The notes beneath the pieces are model-generated. The model ran no database searches. It was given only the letters and a program-made list of their open reading frames with translations, and had not been told where the DNA came from. The position numbers were made by a program, and so were the translations under genes. From Candidatus Aquidulcis sp. (GTDB lineage: Bacteria; Chloroflexota; Anaerolineae; UBA4142), in assembly GCA_020723345.1 (NCBI GenBank), contig DYJA01000041.1, forward strand, positions 1-53,557: 53,557 nucleotides of DNA, written 5' to 3'. Below, one piece after another: positions 15,533 to 23,754 of the stretch; the stretch's first letter is position 1; each line of letters starts with the position of its first letter.

Positions 15533-16315
15533 ATGCCACGCGATTACCTCGTCGAACATCTCATTGCGATTCCATCTTTCCGCGCGCTGCTGCGCGCGGT
15601 CGAAGCGCGCAAGATCGCCGCGCTCGATCTGCCGCGTCCGATTCTCGATCTCGGCTGCGGTGACGGACATTTCGCGCAGGCGACGTTCACTGCGCCGCTC
15701 GACGTGGGAATCGATCCGTCGCCGCAAGCGATTGCCGAAGCCGCGCGCCGCGAGATGCACCGCGAACTGCGCGTCTTGAATAGCAACCAGATGCCATTCG
15801 CCGACGGCGCGTTCGCGACGGTACTGAGCAATTCCGTCGTCGAGCACATTCCCGACATCGACGCGACGCTGCGCGAGACGCACCGCGTTCTGAAACCCGG
15901 TGGTCTGTTCGTTTTCACGACGCCGTCGCATCACTTTGCGGAATTTCTTTTCTTTGCCGATTCTTTGCGCGCCGTGCGTTTGACGCGATTGTCGCGCGCG
16001 TACGAAAATTATTTTAATCGTATCTCGCGCCACTATCGCACCGATTCGCCCGACGTGTGGATCGAGCGGCTCGCTCGATTCGGCTTTGGCGTGCGCGAAT
16101 GGCACGCGTACTTTTCGCGCGCCGCGTCGCACCTGTTCGATCTCGCGCACTACTATTCGTCGCCGACGCTGTTGTACAAGAAATTGTTCGGACGCTGGAT
16201 CATCGCGCCGTACCGCGCCAATTTCATTCTGATCGAATCCTTGTGGCGACGTTTCTACGACGAGCCGCCGACGGACCAAGGCGCATATCTTTTTTTCCTG
16301 TGTGAGAAAAAGTGA
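15533..16315 (+). CDS. SAM-dependent class I methyltransferase
   Basis: 260 aa. The ATG at 15533 lies just after the Uma2 stop. SAM-binding motif I is ILDLGCGDGHFA, with acidic loop DVGIDPSPQAI. Motif IV is ATVLSNSVVEHIPD, followed by the post-motif RVLKPGGLFVFTTPS. This is the Methyltransf_11 plan. The substrate is not visible; its place between glycosyltransferases suggests a sugar or polyprenyl-linked target. Its stop overlaps the GTG start of the GT39 gene. Confidence 0.85.
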   Translation: MPRDYLVEHLIAIPSFRALLRAVEARKIAALDLPRPILDLGCGDGHFAQATFTAPLDVGIDPSPQAIAEAARREMHRELRVLNSNQMPFADGAFATVLSNSVVEHIPDIDATLRETHRVLKPGGLFVFTTPSHHFAEFLFFADSLRAVRLTRLSRAYENYFNRISRHYRTDSPDVWIERLARFGFGVREWHAYFSRAASHLFDLAHYYSSPTLLYKKLFGRWIIAPYRANFILIESLWRRFYDEPPTDQGAYLFFLCEKK

Positions 16316-18351
16316 ATCATCTCCGCTCGCTTTCTCAACCCGCGCTTGCGCTTGCTGCGATTTTGTTCGCCGCCGCCGCGCAAAACCTGCACGTTTACCG
16401 CCAGATGGACCAAGCCGCAATTTTTCTTTTTGGCGCGGCAGTTTGTGTGTGGCTGTTCGCATTGCTCACGACGCGTGTCGCCATCGGTACACGGCTGAAC
16501 GAAACCGCCCCGGTCGAAGAAAAACCGCGCGCGCTCTCGCGCACGTTCGTCGTCAGTGCGTTCGCGCTTGCCGCGCTCACGTTTCTCTTTTCAACGGGCA
16601 ATGAGTTCACGCCCGACAACGTGCTGGCGTGGTTTCTCAGCCTCGCCGTCTTTTTCTACGCGTTTTGGATTCCCGAAAAAACCTGGGAAGAATGGCGTGC
16701 GTGGCTCGCCGCGCGCGCGGGATCGACGCGCGAAATTCTGGCGCACGGCGCGCGCGTCTCGCCGCAAATCATCGCGCTGCTCGGCGTGACGGCGCTCGGC
16801 GTGTTCTTTTACTATCACGATCTCGATCTGACTCCGGTGGAGATGGACAGCGACCATGCGGAAAAATTGCTTGATGTGAACGACGTCGTCAACGACGGGC
16901 GCACGCCGATTTTTTTCGAGCGGAACACGGGGCGCGAGCCGATGCAATTTTATCTGACTGCCGCGTTCGTCAACTTAACCCAGCATCCGATTGACCACAT
17001 GGCGCTCAAACTGATCGCCGCGTTGATGGGCGTGCTGGTCATCCCGTTCACGTTTCTGCTCGCGCGCGAATTGTTCGACGACGATGTCGCGCTGCTTGCC
17101 GCGCTTTTCATCGCGTTTAGCAAGTGGCCCCTGACGATTGCGCGGATGGGTTTGCGTTTTCCGTTCACGCCGGTCTTTGTCGCGCCGACGGTGTATTTTT
17201 TGTTTCGCGCGCTCAAATCGGGTCGCCGCAACGATTTTCTGATGGCGGGATTGTTTCTCGGCTTGGGCTTGCTTGGCTACAACGCGTTTCGCCTCGCGCC
17301 GATTTTGGTTGTCGCGTTTCTCGGCTTGTGGTGGCTGACGCACTCGATGTCGTCGGCGCAACTCGTTCGCTTGGTCAGGAACAGCGCGCTGATGTTTTTG
17401 CTCGCGCTCTTCATCACGATGCCGCTCGTGCGCTATATGACCGAAGAGCCCGAAAACGTTTGGTATCGCGCGGCAACGCGTTTGATGGGCGAAGGGAACG
17501 CGATCCCAGGAAATCCGCTGAAGGTGTTGGCGCAAAATCTGGTGAACGCGGCGCGCATGTTCAACTGGACGGGCGATTCGGCGTGGCCCAATTCGCTGCC
17601 CGGCGATCCCGCGCTCGATTACATTTCGGGCGGCTTGTTTCTGTTGGGCGTCGTGTACGCGCTGTATCGGCTGGCGCGGTACCGCGAAAACGAGTACGCG
17701 TTTGTACTGCTTGGCATCGGCGTTATGCTGCTGCCGTCCGCGCTCAGTCTCGCGTTTCCAAACGAGAATCCGAGCGTCGTCCGCGCGGGTGGCGCGATTC
17801 CGTTCGTCTTTATCATCGCCGCGCTGCCGCTCGCGTGGTTGCTGCGCGCGCTGCGCGAATCGTCTGCGAAATTTGCGTGGGGCAGAGCCGCATCAGTCGC
17901 GATTCTCGTTGTGCTGTTCGCGCTCATCGTCCGCGCGAATTATCTGCGCTATTTCCGGGAATTCGACGCGAACTATCGGCAGGCGTCGTGGAATTCGTCC
18001 GAAGTCGCGCAGGTGATCCGCAGTTTCGCGGGCAGCGTCGGCGATGTGGAGCACGCATGGATTTTGCTGTATCCGCACTGGATCGACACGCGCAATGTCG
18101 CGATCAACTTGCGCGAAATCGGTTGGGAGCAAACGCTGCCGAGCGCGGAGGCGGCGCAATCGCACGTCGAGGATCCCGCGAATAAACTGTACATTTTGAA
18201 CCCAGGTGATACGGTGAACCTTGTTCGCCTGCGCGAGATTTTCCCGGATGGACAAGAACGAACTTTTCACGCGCGCACGCCCGGACACGACTTTGTAATT
18301 TTCTATGTTTCCGGTGCAGCCGCGCCCGGCGGATTTCTGGAGTCGAAATGA
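16312..18351 (+). CDS. GT39-type membrane glycosyltransferase
   Basis: 679 aa with about 11-13 membrane segments. GTG start overlaps the methyltransferase stop. The first outer loop after a membrane helix holds the acidic signature DLTPVEMDSDHAEKLLD, like the D-E site of protein mannosyltransferases and ArnT. It then has REPMQFYLTAAF and HPIDHMALKLIAALMG, with a soluble C-terminal part. Such enzymes use polyprenyl-phosphate sugars on the outer membrane face. Donor and acceptor cannot be told. It is joined to the following MerB-like gene by an ATGA overlap. Confidence 0.85.
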   Translation: MNHLRSLSQPALALAAILFAAAAQNLHVYRQMDQAAIFLFGAAVCVWLFALLTTRVAIGTRLNETAPVEEKPRALSRTFVVSAFALAALTFLFSTGNEFTPDNVLAWFLSLAVFFYAFWIPEKTWEEWRAWLAARAGSTREILAHGARVSPQIIALLGVTALGVFFYYHDLDLTPVEMDSDHAEKLLDVNDVVNDGRTPIFFERNTGREPMQFYLTAAFVNLTQHPIDHMALKLIAALMGVLVIPFTFLLARELFDDDVALLAALFIAFSKWPLTIARMGLRFPFTPVFVAPTVYFLFRALKSGRRNDFLMAGLFLGLGLLGYNAFRLAPILVVAFLGLWWLTHSMSSAQLVRLVRNSALMFLLALFITMPLVRYMTEEPENVWYRAATRLMGEGNAIPGNPLKVLAQNLVNAARMFNWTGDSAWPNSLPGDPALDYISGGLFLLGVVYALYRLARYRENEYAFVLLGIGVMLLPSALSLAFPNENPSVVRAGGAIPFVFIIAALPLAWLLRALRESSAKFAWGRAASVAILVVLFALIVRANYLRYFREFDANYRQASWNSSEVAQVIRSFAGSVGDVEHAWILLYPHWIDTRNVAINLREIGWEQTLPSAEAAQSHVEDPANKLYILNPGDTVNLVRLREIFPDGQERTFHARTPGHDFVIFYVSGAAAPGGFLESK

Positions 18352-19100
18352 AAGACAATTTGCTTTTGGGCATTTGGCGTCACTTGGTTCCCATCCCGCG
18401 CGCGGTTTGGCGGCGTGAGGTCGCGGAAACCGCCGCGCGGACCGATCAGCATCTTGGTTTTATGGCGGAGCCGCACCATCGCGTTCGGAATTTTGTCGTG
18501 CGCGAATTGCCGCGCGCCGGCAAACCACTGACGCCCGAATTCATCGCGCAGTCGGTCGGTTTGCCTGTCGCGCAAGTAATCGCGATTCTGGACGATCTGG
18601 AAAAACACAAAACGTTTTTGTTCCGAAACCCAGACGGCGCGGTCGCGTGGGCGTACCCCGTCACGGTCGAGCCGACGCCGCATCAAATCACATTCAGCAC
18701 AGGCGAACGCGTCTACGCGGCTTGAGGAATCGATGCGATCGCAACGCCCTTCGTGCAAGGGCGCTTACGCGGCGAGTATCTTGCCGTGACGATTGAAACT
18801 GAGTGTGCGCATTGCCATCGTTCGTTGCGTTTGCGCGTCGATAGCGCGATGAAGTTCGAGGTGGAGAGTGCGGGCGCTGCGCCGGTCGTCTTTGTCCCGA
18901 TGGTGAATTTCGCGCGATTGAAAGAGCCGAGCATCATCAACGCGTTTTGAAAGAATTCAATTTTCTTCTGGTCAGAAGAACACGCGCAAGAATATCGCAA
19001 GACGACGAACGGCATTCGCGGCACCTATTTCACTCTGGCGCAAGCGGCGTACATGGTTCCGCCAACGCAGAGTGCGCTCTTCGGATTTGCTCGCGAGTAG
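18348..19100 (+). CDS. merB: Alkylmercury lyase (MerB-like), candidate double selenoprotein
   Basis: One frame runs from the ATG at 18348 to TAG at 19098-19100 (250 residues), interrupted only by TGA at 18723 (residue 126) and TGA at 18948 (residue 201). The N-terminus is a winged-helix-like region (LTPEFIAQSVGLPVAQVIAILDDLEK), then PTPHQITFSTGERVYAA. In MerB the catalytic set is Cys96, Asp99 and Cys159. Here TGA126 is followed three residues on by Asp129 (GID), matching Cys96/Asp99. TGA201 stands in AF-TGA-KNSIFF, matching the FCCHVHFF context of Cys159. Conserved sequence continues between and after both TGAs (TECAHCHRSL, FFWSEEHAQEY, FTLAQAAYM). I read both TGAs as selenocysteine. MerB cleaves carbon-mercury bonds; substrate here is inferred. 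A double-stop pseudogene is the alternative. Confidence 0.8.
18723..18763 (+). promoter_or_regulatory. Candidate SECIS 1 (TGA codon plus hairpin)
   Basis: TGA at 18723-18725. A perfect 7-bp stem CGCCCTT (18745-18751) / AAGGGCG (18757-18763) closes a 5-base loop CGTGC that starts 27 bases after the TGA. A G in the first two loop positions and this distance suit the bacterial SECIS model. Confidence 0.6.
18948..18980 (+). promoter_or_regulatory. Candidate SECIS 2 (TGA codon plus GGTC-loop hairpin)
   Basis: TGA at 18948-18950. A perfect 7-bp stem TTCTTCT (18963-18969) / AGAAGAA (18974-18980) presents the loop GGTC. The Escherichia coli fdhF SECIS also carries GGUC in its apical loop, 18 bases after its UGA; here the gap is 19. 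Confidence 0.68.
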
Positions 19101-19107
19101 AAACCAC

Positions 19108-22100
19108 GTGGCAGAAAAATTATTCAATCACTCTGAATCGAATCACCGATCGCTCAATTGGTCTTGGCTCGCGCCAAATCTGCTCGCGCTGATCTTGCTG
19201 CTCGGCGCGGTGCTACGTTTGAGCGGCATCAACTGGGATGAGGATCAGCACCTGCATCCCGACGAGCGCTTTCTCACGATGGTCGAGTCTGCGATCAGCA
19301 TTCCTGGGTTGGACAAGCCAGTCGGACCGCTGCCGCCAAATTGTACCAAGTGGGGTGGCTATTTCAATACGGAATGTTCGCCGCTCAGTCCGTACAATCA
19401 CAATTTCGGTTTGTTCGTCTACGGTACGTTCCCGATTTTTCTCACGCGCTTGCTCGGCGAATTTCTTGGACAGACCGGTTACGGCGAAATCCATTTGCTG
19501 GGACGCATTTTCTCCGCGCTGTTCGATCTATTGACGGTGCTGCTGATCTTTTTCATCGGGCGACGAATGTACGACGTGCGCGCCGCGCTCCTGGGCGCGC
19601 TGTTCCTCGCTGCGTCGGCGCTCGATATTCAGCAATCGCATTTCTTCACCGTCGACACGTTCACGAACGTGCCGATTTTGCTCGCGTTCTGGTGCGCGCT
19701 GGACATCGCGGATGGAAAACATTGGCGCGCGTTTTTGTGGGCGGGCGCGGCGTTCGGGCTTGCGCTTGCGGGGCGGATCAACATCGCGCCGTTCGCGGCG
19801 GTGTTGATCGCGGCAGGCGCGCTGCGCGCGTGGCGTGTGGCGCGTGGTGCTCTCGAATCGCCCGGCGCGCCTGAATCGCTCGACCGCAGACCGCAGACCG
19901 CGGACAGTGAGCAAGGTTCAGCGGTCGGCGGTCGACAGTCAGCGGTCGTGTTTGAAGATGTTTTGCTCGGCAAACTCACGCGCGCGTTCTTTGGTCTCGC
20001 GGGCGCGGCAATCATCGCGCTGATCGTGTTTCGCACTTTTCAGCCGTACGCGGCAAACGGTCCGAATTTCATTTCGCCAAGTTTGCCCAAGTTCGATACC
20101 AGTCGCGGCGCGGTGAATGTGTTGCTCGATGTCGCGTTGTCGTGGGCGGGCGGCGTCAATCCCAAGTTCGCCGATAATATGTCGTACATCGGCGAACTGG
20201 TCGCGGGACGACAAGACTATCCGCCCGGACATCAGTGGACGAATCGTCCGGCGTACATTTTTCCGTTTGAAAACATGGCGCTGTGGGGGCTGGGCTTGCC
20301 GCTCGGACTCGCGGCGTGGGCGGGCTTTGCGTTCGCGCTGTACCGCCTGATTCGCTATCGCGAATGGCAGCATCTCTTGATCGTCGTCTGGGTTGGCGTG
20401 ACGTTCGGTTACACCGGACAGCAGTGGGTCAAGACGCTGCGGTACTTTTTGCAAATCTATCCGTTCCTCGCGCTGCTCGCGGGATATTTTCTGGTGACGT
20501 TGTGGGATTGGGCAACCGCAGACCGCAGACCGCAGACCGCAGACGACAGCGGCGGTCGGCGGTCGGTCGTCGGCGGTCGCGTTGCGCGCCTCGTCGTCGC
20601 AATCATCGCGCTCATCGTTATCGGCTATACGCTTTTCTGGGCAACCGCGTTCGCGACGATTTACACGCGACCCGTTTCGCGCGTGACCGCGTCGCGTTGG
20701 ATTTTTCAGAATGTGCCTCCGGGTTCGATCCTCGCGAACGAGCATTGGGACGATCCGTTGCCGCTCCGCATCGACGGCAAGGATCCGTTTGGTGGAATGT
20801 ATCGCAGTCTGCCGTCGTCGGGCGATGGCTTGATGCACTGGTACGACGAGGACACACCCGAAAAACGCGCGCAGGCGATCCAATGGATCGATAACGCAGA
20901 GTACATCGTTCTGTCGTCCAACCGATTGTACGGTTCGATTCCGCGCTTGCCGATGCGTTATCCGCTGACGACGAAATATTACGAATGGCTTTTTGACGGC
21001 ACGCTTGGATTCGACAAGGTCGCGGAGATCACGTCGCGTCCGCAATTGTTCGGCATTGAGATCGACGACGATAACGCGGAAGAGGCGTTCACGGTATATG
21101 ATCATCCGAAAGTTTTGATTTTCAAAAAGGCGGCGCGCTTTTCGCACGCAAATACTGCCGCGCTGTTCAACAGCGTCGATCTCAGCGAAGTGTATCGCTT
21201 TTGGCCCCGCGAAGCGACGCTCGCGCCGACCGCGCTCTTGCTTACCCCGGCGGATCGCGACGCGCAAGCACGCGGCGGTACCTGGTCGCACATCTTCAAT
21301 CCCGACGATTGGATCAATCGCGCGCCGGTGATCGTCTGGCTCGCGCTGATTGAATTCCTGGGTTGGCTCGCGTTTCCGATTGCGTTTGTCGCGTTACGTG
21401 CGCTCGCGGATCGCGGTTATATTTTCGCCAAAGCGATTGGCATTTTGCTGCCGGCGTGGATCGCGTGGACGCTGGCAAGTTATCATCTTATTCCATTCAG
21501 CCGCGCGAGCATCGCACTCGCAATCGCGCTGGTTGCCGTCGTCAGCGCGTTGGCAGTGCGGCGGCGCGGGCGTGACATTGTCGCGTTCGTGCGCGCGCGC
21601 TGGAAAATCGTTTTGGTCGAAGAATTATCGTTCCTCGTTTTCTTCGGCGCGTTCTTGTTGATTCGCTACGGCAATCCCGATTTGTGGCACCAGTGGTTCG
21701 GCGGCGAAAAGCCGATGGATTTCACGATGCTCAACGCGGTGATCAAGTCGACCTGGTTTCCGCCGTACGACGCCTGGTTCGCGGGCGGCTATCTCGATTA
21801 TTATTATTTCGGTCAGGTGATCAACGCGACGCTGATCAAATTCTCCGGTATCGTTCCCGAAGTCGCCTACAATCTCGCGCTGCCGATGTATTTTGCGATG
21901 ACGGCGATGGGCGCGTTCAGTGTGGTTTTCAATCTCAGTCGCCAGGCGCACCTTCCACCTTCCAACTTCCAATCTCCAACTTCTAATTTCCATGCGTTCT
22001 TCTTTGCTTTCTTGGGAGCGATCTTCGTCGCAGTGATCGGCAACCTGGGACAAGTGATTTTGATCGGACAAATGTTTTTGCGGATCGGCGGCGGCGATCC

Positions 22101-23754
22101 GAAAGGTTCTATCGCAAATGGGGTGACGAGCATCGCGACTGGAATGTGGCGCGTGTTTGTCGATCAGCAGCCCTTCGACGTGCCGATTGGTCAGTGGTAC
22201 TGGAATGCCTCGCGCATTGTCACGACCGGCAACGCGATCAACGAATTTCCATTCTTCACATTCTTATACGCCGATTTGCACGCGCATTTGATGGCGCTCG
22301 CGTTCACGCTCACCGTCATCGGCTTTGGCGTGAGTTTTGTCACGCGCGAACGCGATGACGACGCGCGGCTCCCACTCTTGGCGCGTTTGCCGATTTCGCC
22401 CGGCGATGTGAGCGAAGTGATCGTGGTCGCGCTCGTGTGCGGCGCGTTGCGCGCGATGAATATCGCCGATTATCCGACGTACCTCTTGTTGATCGGCTGC
22501 GCGCTGGCGATTGGCGAGTACGCGCGCCGCCGCGTGGTCGACTGGGCAGGTATCTTTGCGGTCGCGTGGCGCTTGGGCGCGATCGTCGTGTTGAGTCTGC
22601 TGCTGTACCAACCGTTCAGCAAAAGTTTCGTCACCGCGTACTCGAGCATCGAGTTGTACAAAGGCGAGCGCACGGGCTTGGGCGAGTACCTGATCGTCCA
22701 CGTCATTTTCCTGTTTGCGATTGTTACGTTCTTGGTCGCGCAAACGCTCGATACGCGCGAACGGCGCAAGTTCTTTGTGGATGTGCTGCCGCTCGTCGTC
22801 GTCGCGTTCATCGTAGTGGAAGCCGCGTTCGTCTTCACGAACATGATGGTATTTGCGGTCGCGTTTCCGCTGCTCGCGCTCGCGGCGATCTTGATCCTGC
22901 GTCCCGAATTGGACGCGCGCGCGCGTTTCATCGCGCTGTTGATCGCGGCGGGACTCGCGATGACGATGATGGTCGAAGTGATCACCGTCAAAGACGACAT
23001 TGGACGCATGAACACCGTGTTCAAGTTCTACAATCAAGTCTGGGTGTTCTTTGCGATTGCGGCGGCGGCGGGAGTCGCCAGTCTACAGTCGTCAGTCGCC
23101 AGCGAACAGTTAACAGTGAACAGTGAACAGTCGGAAGAAATCATAAATCATAAATCGAAAATCTTAAATCCCGTGTGGTGGATGTTTTTTGGATTTCTTA
23201 TCTTCATCGGCTTGTTGTACCCGATCACCGCAACGCGCGCGAAGGTGAATGATCGGTTCACGCTGGGATCGCCATCCGGGTTGAACGGTATGGATTTTTT
23301 GCGGACGGCGGTTTATCCCGACAACAACTATAATCAAGTCCTCGAACATGATCGCCAGGGAATTGAATGGCTGCGCGCGAACGTCGAAGGGTCGCCGGTG
23401 ATTTTGGAAGGGAACGCGCCGTTGTACCATTGGGCGTCGCGCGTCTCGATCTACACGGGCTTGCCGACGGTGATCGGCTGGGATTGGCATCAAAAGCAGC
23501 AGCGCTCGATCGTCGACGGCGCGATCATCGATCGGCGGCTGGACGCGGCGCGGCAAATTTACAATTCCCGAAACGCGGAGGGCGCATTGCCGTTGCTCAA
23601 ACGCTTTCGCGTCGCGTACATTTTTGTCGGCGAAGTCGAGCACGCGTTTTATGACAAAGCCGGTCTGGCAAAGTTCGACGCGATGACGCGCGCGGGGCAA
23701 CTTACGCTGGTGTACCAGAACGAGCGCGTCAGGATTTACAAAGTCAATGAGTAG
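19108..23754 (+). CDS. Giant membrane protein: GT39-like half fused to DUF2298 (YYY) half
   Basis: 1548 aa with more than 20 membrane segments. The GTG at 19108 lies 8 bases after the MerB-like stop. The N-terminal half has the acidic first-loop motif NWDEDQHLHPDERF of GT39 enzymes. After about residue 740 the C-terminal half shows DUF2298 (Chlor_Arch_YYY) features: KPMDFTMLNAVIKS, PPYDAWFAGGYLDYYYFGQ, NEFPFFTFLYADLHAHLMAL, and DIGRMNTVFKFYNQVW. DUF2298 proteins are known mainly from Chloroflexi and Archaea. Lipid-linked sugar transfer is the likely job; not proven. Four short-unit repeat arrays are read through in frame in hydrophilic loops. Confidence 0.82.
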   Translation: MAEKLFNHSESNHRSLNWSWLAPNLLALILLLGAVLRLSGINWDEDQHLHPDERFLTMVESAISIPGLDKPVGPLPPNCTKWGGYFNTECSPLSPYNHNFGLFVYGTFPIFLTRLLGEFLGQTGYGEIHLLGRIFSALFDLLTVLLIFFIGRRMYDVRAALLGALFLAASALDIQQSHFFTVDTFTNVPILLAFWCALDIADGKHWRAFLWAGAAFGLALAGRINIAPFAAVLIAAGALRAWRVARGALESPGAPESLDRRPQTADSEQGSAVGGRQSAVVFEDVLLGKLTRAFFGLAGAAIIALIVFRTFQPYAANGPNFISPSLPKFDTSRGAVNVLLDVALSWAGGVNPKFADNMSYIGELVAGRQDYPPGHQWTNRPAYIFPFENMALWGLGLPLGLAAWAGFAFALYRLIRYREWQHLLIVVWVGVTFGYTGQQWVKTLRYFLQIYPFLALLAGYFLVTLWDWATADRRPQTADDSGGRRSVVGGRVARLVVAIIALIVIGYTLFWATAFATIYTRPVSRVTASRWIFQNVPPGSILANEHWDDPLPLRIDGKDPFGGMYRSLPSSGDGLMHWYDEDTPEKRAQAIQWIDNAEYIVLSSNRLYGSIPRLPMRYPLTTKYYEWLFDGTLGFDKVAEITSRPQLFGIEIDDDNAEEAFTVYDHPKVLIFKKAARFSHANTAALFNSVDLSEVYRFWPREATLAPTALLLTPADRDAQARGGTWSHIFNPDDWINRAPVIVWLALIEFLGWLAFPIAFVALRALADRGYIFAKAIGILLPAWIAWTLASYHLIPFSRASIALAIALVAVVSALAVRRRGRDIVAFVRARWKIVLVEELSFLVFFGAFLLIRYGNPDLWHQWFGGEKPMDFTMLNAVIKSTWFPPYDAWFAGGYLDYYYFGQVINATLIKFSGIVPEVAYNLALPMYFAMTAMGAFSVVFNLSRQAHLPPSNFQSPTSNFHAFFFAFLGAIFVAVIGNLGQVILIGQMFLRIGGGDPKGSIANGVTSIATGMWRVFVDQQPFDVPIGQWYWNASRIVTTGNAINEFPFFTFLYADLHAHLMALAFTLTVIGFGVSFVTRERDDDARLPLLARLPISPGDVSEVIVVALVCGALRAMNIADYPTYLLLIGCALAIGEYARRRVVDWAGIFAVAWRLGAIVVLSLLLYQPFSKSFVTAYSSIELYKGERTGLGEYLIVHVIFLFAIVTFLVAQTLDTRERRKFFVDVLPLVVVAFIVVEAAFVFTNMMVFAVAFPLLALAAILILRPELDARARFIALLIAAGLAMTMMVEVITVKDDIGRMNTVFKFYNQVWVFFAIAAAAGVASLQSSVASEQLTVNSEQSEEIINHKSKILNPVWWMFFGFLIFIGLLYPITATRAKVNDRFTLGSPSGLNGMDFLRTAVYPDNNYNQVLEHDRQGIEWLRANVEGSPVILEGNAPLYHWASRVSIYTGLPTVIGWDWHQKQQRSIVDGAIIDRRLDAARQIYNSRNAEGALPLLKRFRVAYIFVGEVEHAFYDKAGLAKFDAMTRAGQLTLVYQNERVRIYKVNE
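19881..19950. repeat. In-frame heptamer hairpin array (GACCGCA/GCGGTCG)
   Basis: Units GACCGCA, GACCGCA and GACCGCG are followed by complementary AGCGGTC, GGCGGTC, GACAGTC and AGCGGTC. The array is translated as a polar loop (DRRPQTADSEQGSAVGG) between membrane helices of the 1548-aa protein. Confidence 0.85.
20514..20580. repeat. In-frame heptamer hairpin array (GACCGCA family, second copy)
   Basis: Four GACCGCA units are followed by GGCGGTC-type complementary units. Translated as ATADRRPQTADDSGGRRSV in a loop of the same protein, 630 bases after the first copy. Confidence 0.85.
21949..21993. repeat. In-frame heptamer array (CACCTTC/CAATCTC)
   Basis: Six 7-bp units (CACCTTC, CACCTTC, CAACTTC, CAATCTC, CAACTTC, TAATTTC), translated as LPPSNFQSPTSNF. 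No inverted arm. Confidence 0.8.
23073..23171. repeat. In-frame composite array (CAGTCGT, AACAGTG and ATAAATC families)
   Basis: CAGTC-type units, then AACAGTGAACAGTGAACAG, then ATCATAAATCATAAATC. Translated as about 30 polar residues (SEQLTVNSEQSEEIINHKSK) between two membrane segments. Confidence 0.78.

Follow-up and report, generated by a model that had tools for sequence, protein, structure and literature searches.

On the forward strand of the window, as the whole stretch of 53,557 nucleotides analysed here is called, a reading frame encodes a protein related to the mercury-detoxifying organomercurial (alkylmercury) lyase MerB, on condition that two in-frame TGA codons are read through. 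The question raised by this locus is whether these codons are stops in a decaying gene or are translated, by which amino acid, and what the product might do. The window lies on contig C60 of an assembly of 6.34 Mb (132 contigs, 95.5% complete), and its relevant features are listed in Table 1. The double UGA, its conservation, the adjacent hairpins, the decoding machinery, purifying selection and the predicted fold lead us to conclude that the gene almost certainly makes a double-selenocysteine (Sec) MerB-like protein.

Table 1. Features of the predicted double-selenocysteine gene and its surroundings (positions in the window)
Feature	Position	Strand	Remarks
Upstream neighbour, PMT_2-type membrane glycosyltransferase	16312..18351	+	Stops at TGA; neighbour not conserved
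Probable ribosome-binding site GGAG	18339..18342	+	Precedes ATG at 18348 (from sequence)
Predicted double-selenocysteine MerB-like gene	18348..19100	+	250 codons (18348-19097) and TAG (19098-19100); UGA at codons 126 and 201; Pfam MerB; 80 relatives
First predicted Sec UGA, codon 126	18723..18725	+	Aligned with MerB Cys96; Asp129, three residues on, corresponds to Asp99
SECIS-like hairpin 1, CGCCCTT-CGTGC-AAGGGCG	18745..18763	+	7-bp stem; apical loop 26 nt after UGA
C-x-H-C motif, codons 153-156	18804..18815	+	Cys153 aligns with buried MerB Cys117
Second predicted Sec UGA, codon 201	18948..18950	+	Aligned with MerB Cys159; context F-U-K-N-S-I-F-F
SECIS-like hairpin 2, TTCTTCT-GGTC-AGAAGAA	18963..18980	+	7-bp stem; apical loop 19 nt after UGA
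Downstream neighbour, PMT_2/DUF2298 membrane protein	19109..23754	+	GTG start at 19109; mechanical ORF from 19072

The interrupted frame and its relatives

The frame is interrupted by the two TGA codons only, and its ATG overlaps with the TGA (18349-18351) at which the upstream gene ends. As noted in the preliminary description, the next gene starts 8 bases after the final stop; the gene is flanked on both sides by membrane glycosyltransferase-like genes. Ordinary annotation reads a gene of this kind as broken, and gene finders split it into fragments, so that it escapes annotation.

Scanning 84,980 species genomes, we retained 80 relatives at 44-61% identity, one of which (L115) is frameshifted or holds N and was excluded from the readable set. 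TGA is present at exactly both positions in 77 of the 79 readable relatives, while the other two (L097 and L120) have swapped it for cysteine (TGC) at the first position and retain TGA at the second; a TGA elsewhere inside the gene was found in none of the 79. The nearest relatives of the window gene are Chloroflexota, and a close relative (55-60% identity) is carried by three more of the 400 genomes examined in this phylum, each with exactly two TGAs. The readable relatives with both TGAs span about ten phyla, and the approximately 80 carriers are mostly uncultured bacteria, many of them from sediment and groundwater. They are labelled Chloroflexota, Desulfobacterota/Thermodesulfobacteriota, Myxococcota, Acidobacteriota, Nitrospirota, Spirochaetota, Rokubacteria, Binatota, KSB1, Bacteroidota and others, although some of these MAG labels may be wrong. 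Shared by 77 of the 79 readable relatives across about ten phyla, the two-TGA pattern is far beyond chance, which bears out the earlier argument that random stops would not fall at just these two positions. No relative of the gene was found in the viral contigs searched, and the sole match in the plasmids searched was one distant MerB-like sequence (26.5% identity).

The dN/dS ratio is about 0.14 before the first TGA, 0.17 between the TGAs and 0.11 after the second one. Selection on the protein therefore persists beyond either TGA, as the conserved sequence previously noticed on the far side of both codons had suggested. The two stops inside the frame, at each of which a mechanical ORF ends, and the metagenome-like assembly might indicate a pseudogene with a decaying frame or a sequencing artefact. 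However, the same two TGAs, and none elsewhere, occur in 77 independently assembled genomes, dN/dS stays at about 0.1-0.17 after each TGA, and the hairpins described below are conserved as well; this explanation was rejected, and its probability is negligible.

Selenocysteine machinery and SECIS-like hairpins

TGA is a working stop in the source organism, because the upstream gene ends in TGA. The same genome encodes the complete Sec machinery, namely, selA (593.8 bits), selB (361.5 bits), tRNASec (selC, 76.3 bits) and a Sec-type selD. Close to its start the latter gene (L039) has a TGA in frame (AACAG-U-ASKLG), and its product is predicted to be a selenoprotein in its own right. In carrier genomes elsewhere selA scored above the cut-off in 37 of 42, with some selA match in 39. 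As the background is already high (321 of 400 genomes of this phylum, 80%, and 129 of 199 genomes in an Acidobacteriota sample, 65%), co-occurrence of selA is required but constitutes weak, non-discriminating support.

The frame would likewise stay open if TGA were read as another amino acid (Trp, Cys or Gly) through a reassigned code or programmed readthrough. Code reassignment was rejected because the upstream gene stops at TGA and the Sec machinery is complete. Moreover, the two positions are those of the catalytic cysteines and swap with Cys, and SECIS-like hairpins follow at the spacing of the bacterial model, which makes insertion of another amino acid very improbable.

The bacterial SECIS model comprises a loop of 3-9 nt with a G within its first two positions, a stem of 4-16 bp, a spacing of 16-37 nt and an energy limit of -7.5 kcal/mol (PMC13188914). 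Both hairpins fit this model, hairpin 2 lying just within the energy limit. The fold energy of each single hairpin was nothing unusual compared with shuffles, and an equally good hairpin is found by chance at 2-6% of the window TGAs; therefore, a hairpin in one sequence proves little, and the evidence for these putative elements lies in their conservation rather than in single fold energies. Both are nearly invariant across the family even at synonymous sites. In hairpin 1, P134 is encoded by CCC in 78/78, F135 by TTC in 80/80, a GTG codon is kept in 78/80 and G138 is GGG in 76/79 sequences. In hairpin 2 (codons TTC TTC TGG TCA GAA GAA), F206 and F207 are TTC in 80/80, S209 is TCA in 75/80 and Glu is GAA in 79/80. 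Among 37 chosen sequences, 97.3% of the hairpin 1 pairs are kept, and seven cells show compensatory change on both sides against 1.1 for shuffled data, with none of 500 shuffles reaching this number. The two relatives with Cys at the first position differ in this respect. In L120 hairpin 1 is destroyed, with GTACTGGCG in place of GTGCAAGGG, and in its sister L119, which has TGA at the first position, the hairpin is intact. L097 still keeps it, as a recent change to Cys would.

Insertion of Sec competes with termination, and two successive UGAs multiply the loss. Thus, one UGA alone might be decoded efficiently, giving a truncated main product and a minor full-length double-Sec form. Both UGAs and both hairpins are equally strongly conserved across about ten phyla, and double-Sec forms occur in two separate clades (see below), both of which argue against such an outcome, and we regard it as unlikely. 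In the double-Sec reading, the hairpin just downstream of each UGA would recruit the SelB-tRNASec complex, selenocysteine would be inserted, and translation would yield one 250-residue MerB-fold protein.

Fold, active site and possible function

The readthrough product matches Pfam MerB (PF03243) with E=1.6e-16 and 60.8 bits versus a gathering score of 27. It does not reach the curated NCBIfam cut-offs of the MerB equivalog (59.8 vs 193 bits) and SaoL (NF040728; 43.8 vs 140 bits), by which the predicted protein is a distinct subfamily outside 'MerB'. The preliminary description of a candidate MerB with both catalytic cysteines replaced by Sec is thus upheld by the alignment, relatives and hairpins as regards the replacement, but not as regards the name. 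Alignment to MerB crystal-structure sequences, using a profile built from four sequences, equates the first TGA with Cys96, Asp129 with Asp99, Cys153 with Cys117 and the second TGA with Cys159, in agreement with the correspondences earlier read from the Asp three residues after the first TGA and from the F-x-K-N-S-I-F-F context of the second. The MerB signature of Cys96 and Cys159 is absent, a predicted Sec UGA standing at both positions, while Asp129 is kept in 80/80 aligned members and Cys153 in 79/80. An AlphaFold2 model (pLDDT 93.5, pTM 0.90) superimposes on seven MerB/MerB2 crystal entries with Z scores of 20.4-23.3 over 196-206 residues (rmsd 2.2-2.8); the best non-MerB chain reached Z 10.3.

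The two cysteines of MerB are its metal ligands, and Asp99 acts in proton transfer and in release (PMC4525700). Sec126, Asp129 and Sec201 would take the places of Cys96, Asp99 and Cys159, so that two selenolates may bind an organometal cation, organomercury being the likeliest, and Asp129 may protonate the carbon, breaking the metal-carbon bond. An organomercury or organometal lyase reaction of this kind is fairly likely. The metal could then be passed to cell thiols or (seleno)sulfide through ligand exchange and not to MerA, an enzyme missing from nearly all carriers searched: canonical merA was found above the cut-off in one of 46, genome G428. The MerB-like gene of that genome, L097, is of the Cys/Sec type and belongs to the pair of relatives with TGC in first place.

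Among the 697 ORFs around the 80 copies, neither a conserved partner gene nor recurrent mer neighbours were found. The commonest immediate upstream genes encode MarR-type (7) and MerR-type (6) regulators; the latter share a single Cys and score far below the Hg-MerR cut-off. The neighbourhood thus provides no strong link to mercury, and in view of the rarity of merA, mercury as the substrate is without contextual support. Upstream MerR-type (at L051, L055, L056, L067, L081 and L100) and MarR-type regulators (at L074, L078, L093, L101, L113 and L117) belong mostly to the Desulfobacterota side. Two MerA-like/dihydrolipoamide dehydrogenase-like genes (G409:C99:72361-73749 and G430:C120:4391-5722) contain one in-frame TGA each and are possible further selenoproteins.

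It is possible, if somewhat doubtful, that the double-Sec MerB-fold protein is no organomercury lyase and acts on another organometal(loid) substrate, or binds and sequesters Hg(II) or another soft metal non-catalytically. On general chemical grounds, a pair of selenolates could bind Hg(II) very tightly. The scarcity of merA and the merely occasional MarR-type and MerR-type regulators in place of mer neighbours are consistent with such roles, as is the naming of SaoL, a known Sec relative, as an 'organometallic' lyase (PMC13188914). On the other hand, the invariant Asp129, together with the metal ligands and Cys153, amounts to a full catalytic set. Taken as a whole, the best explanation is a double-Sec MerB-fold protein acting as an organometal lyase, and we consider it likely, with the activity itself predicted from the conserved active site.

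It is rare for both metal ligands of an enzyme active site to be selenocysteines. A large merB survey demanded Cys96 and Cys159 (PMC8261052), and the double-Sec genes would consequently escape it. If methylmercury is cleaved, mer-based estimates of demethylation omit an enzyme class present in Chloroflexota, Desulfobacterota, Acidobacteriota and others.

Comparison with MerB, SaoL and other Sec-containing clades

To our knowledge, SaoL has no proven substrate. In a catalogue (2026) of 119 prokaryotic selenoprotein families it is the sole MerB-like entry, with one Sec (PMC13188914). The earlier notion of MerB as a Cys enzyme without a double-Sec form thus holds in part: Sec in a MerB-like protein is already known, while Sec at both positions is new to this catalogue. 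No double-Sec MerB or organomercurial lyase was found in the literature searched, which was largely open-access.

SaoL (NF040728) and the window family are both MerB-like with predicted Sec at the Cys159-equivalent position, where we place the Sec of SaoL as read from the genomic sequences L165 and L166. They differ in that SaoL has Cys at the Cys96 position, and hence one Sec instead of two. The Cys-Sec pair of SaoL is absent from the window protein, whose two Sec are preceded by Ala and Phe, and the SaoL model gave a best E of 2.5e-16 against 76 window-family members where two true SaoL gave 1.1e-51 and 2.9e-43. L165 represents a true SaoL (169.6 bits, Cys/Sec, motif CU-NVMNFF). The NCBIfam SaoL model appears to end one residue before the Sec; L165 and L166 both run on past the TGA (TCU-NVMNFF in L165).

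Four kinds of protein emerged when the 400 Chloroflexota genomes were scanned with PF03243, and 297 genomes from the phylum to which L078 belongs with the SaoL model: Cys/Cys MerBs, a Cys/Sec clade, true SaoL (Cys/Sec) and Sec/Sec proteins. Members of the Cys/Sec clade from Chloroflexota (L010/L145, L136, L140, L142, L146, L147, L150, L155-L160, L162 and L164) have a single TGA, which stands at the Cys159 position and precedes a conserved hairpin of sequence CTCTTCCGGTCGGAAGAG or similar. This single-Sec Chloroflexota clade (e.g. L147 and L164) shares with the window family the Sec and a GGTC-loop hairpin at the second position, unlike it has Cys at the first, scores, where tested, under the cut-offs for both SaoL and MerB and is apparently also uncatalogued.

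A second group (L151-L154, L169, L171, L176, L178, L179, L182 and L183) shares predicted Sec at both positions with the window family, in the motifs FAQ-U-xFESLAV ... U-STMNLFRSEEH, but mostly has Glu in place of Asp99. The Chloroflexota genome G137 contains three copies of this double-TGA gene. In a maximum-likelihood tree of 102 proteins, with TGA codons entered as Cys and an arbitrary root, the window family (100/100) and this second group (100/93) come out as separate, supported Sec/Sec clades, and Sec-to-Cys changes at the first position occur in both. Judging from these sequences, Sec at the Cys159 position is widespread among MerB-like proteins, and since the Sec/Sec proteins form two separate clades, Sec was probably gained at the Cys96 position on two occasions. 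The broadest proposal, about which we are evenly divided, is that of a widespread double-selenolate organometal lyase that arose on two or more occasions from MerB-like ancestors with cysteine or a single Sec and breaks down methylmercury or another organometal in Sec-using, largely merA-less bacteria, by a route overlooked in all Cys-based merB surveys.

Natural Cys/Cys, Cys/Sec and Sec/Sec versions exist, and the gain from selenium versus sulfur at each MerB ligand is therefore testable. Compared with MerB itself (PF03243; PDB 3F0O, 3F2G, 1S6L and 5C17), the window protein shares the predicted fold, the equivalents of Asp99 and Cys117 and both metal-ligand positions, while it is distinguished by predicted Sec at both ligand cysteines, about 20% identity, an N-terminal extension of about 20 residues and a location outside a mer operon.
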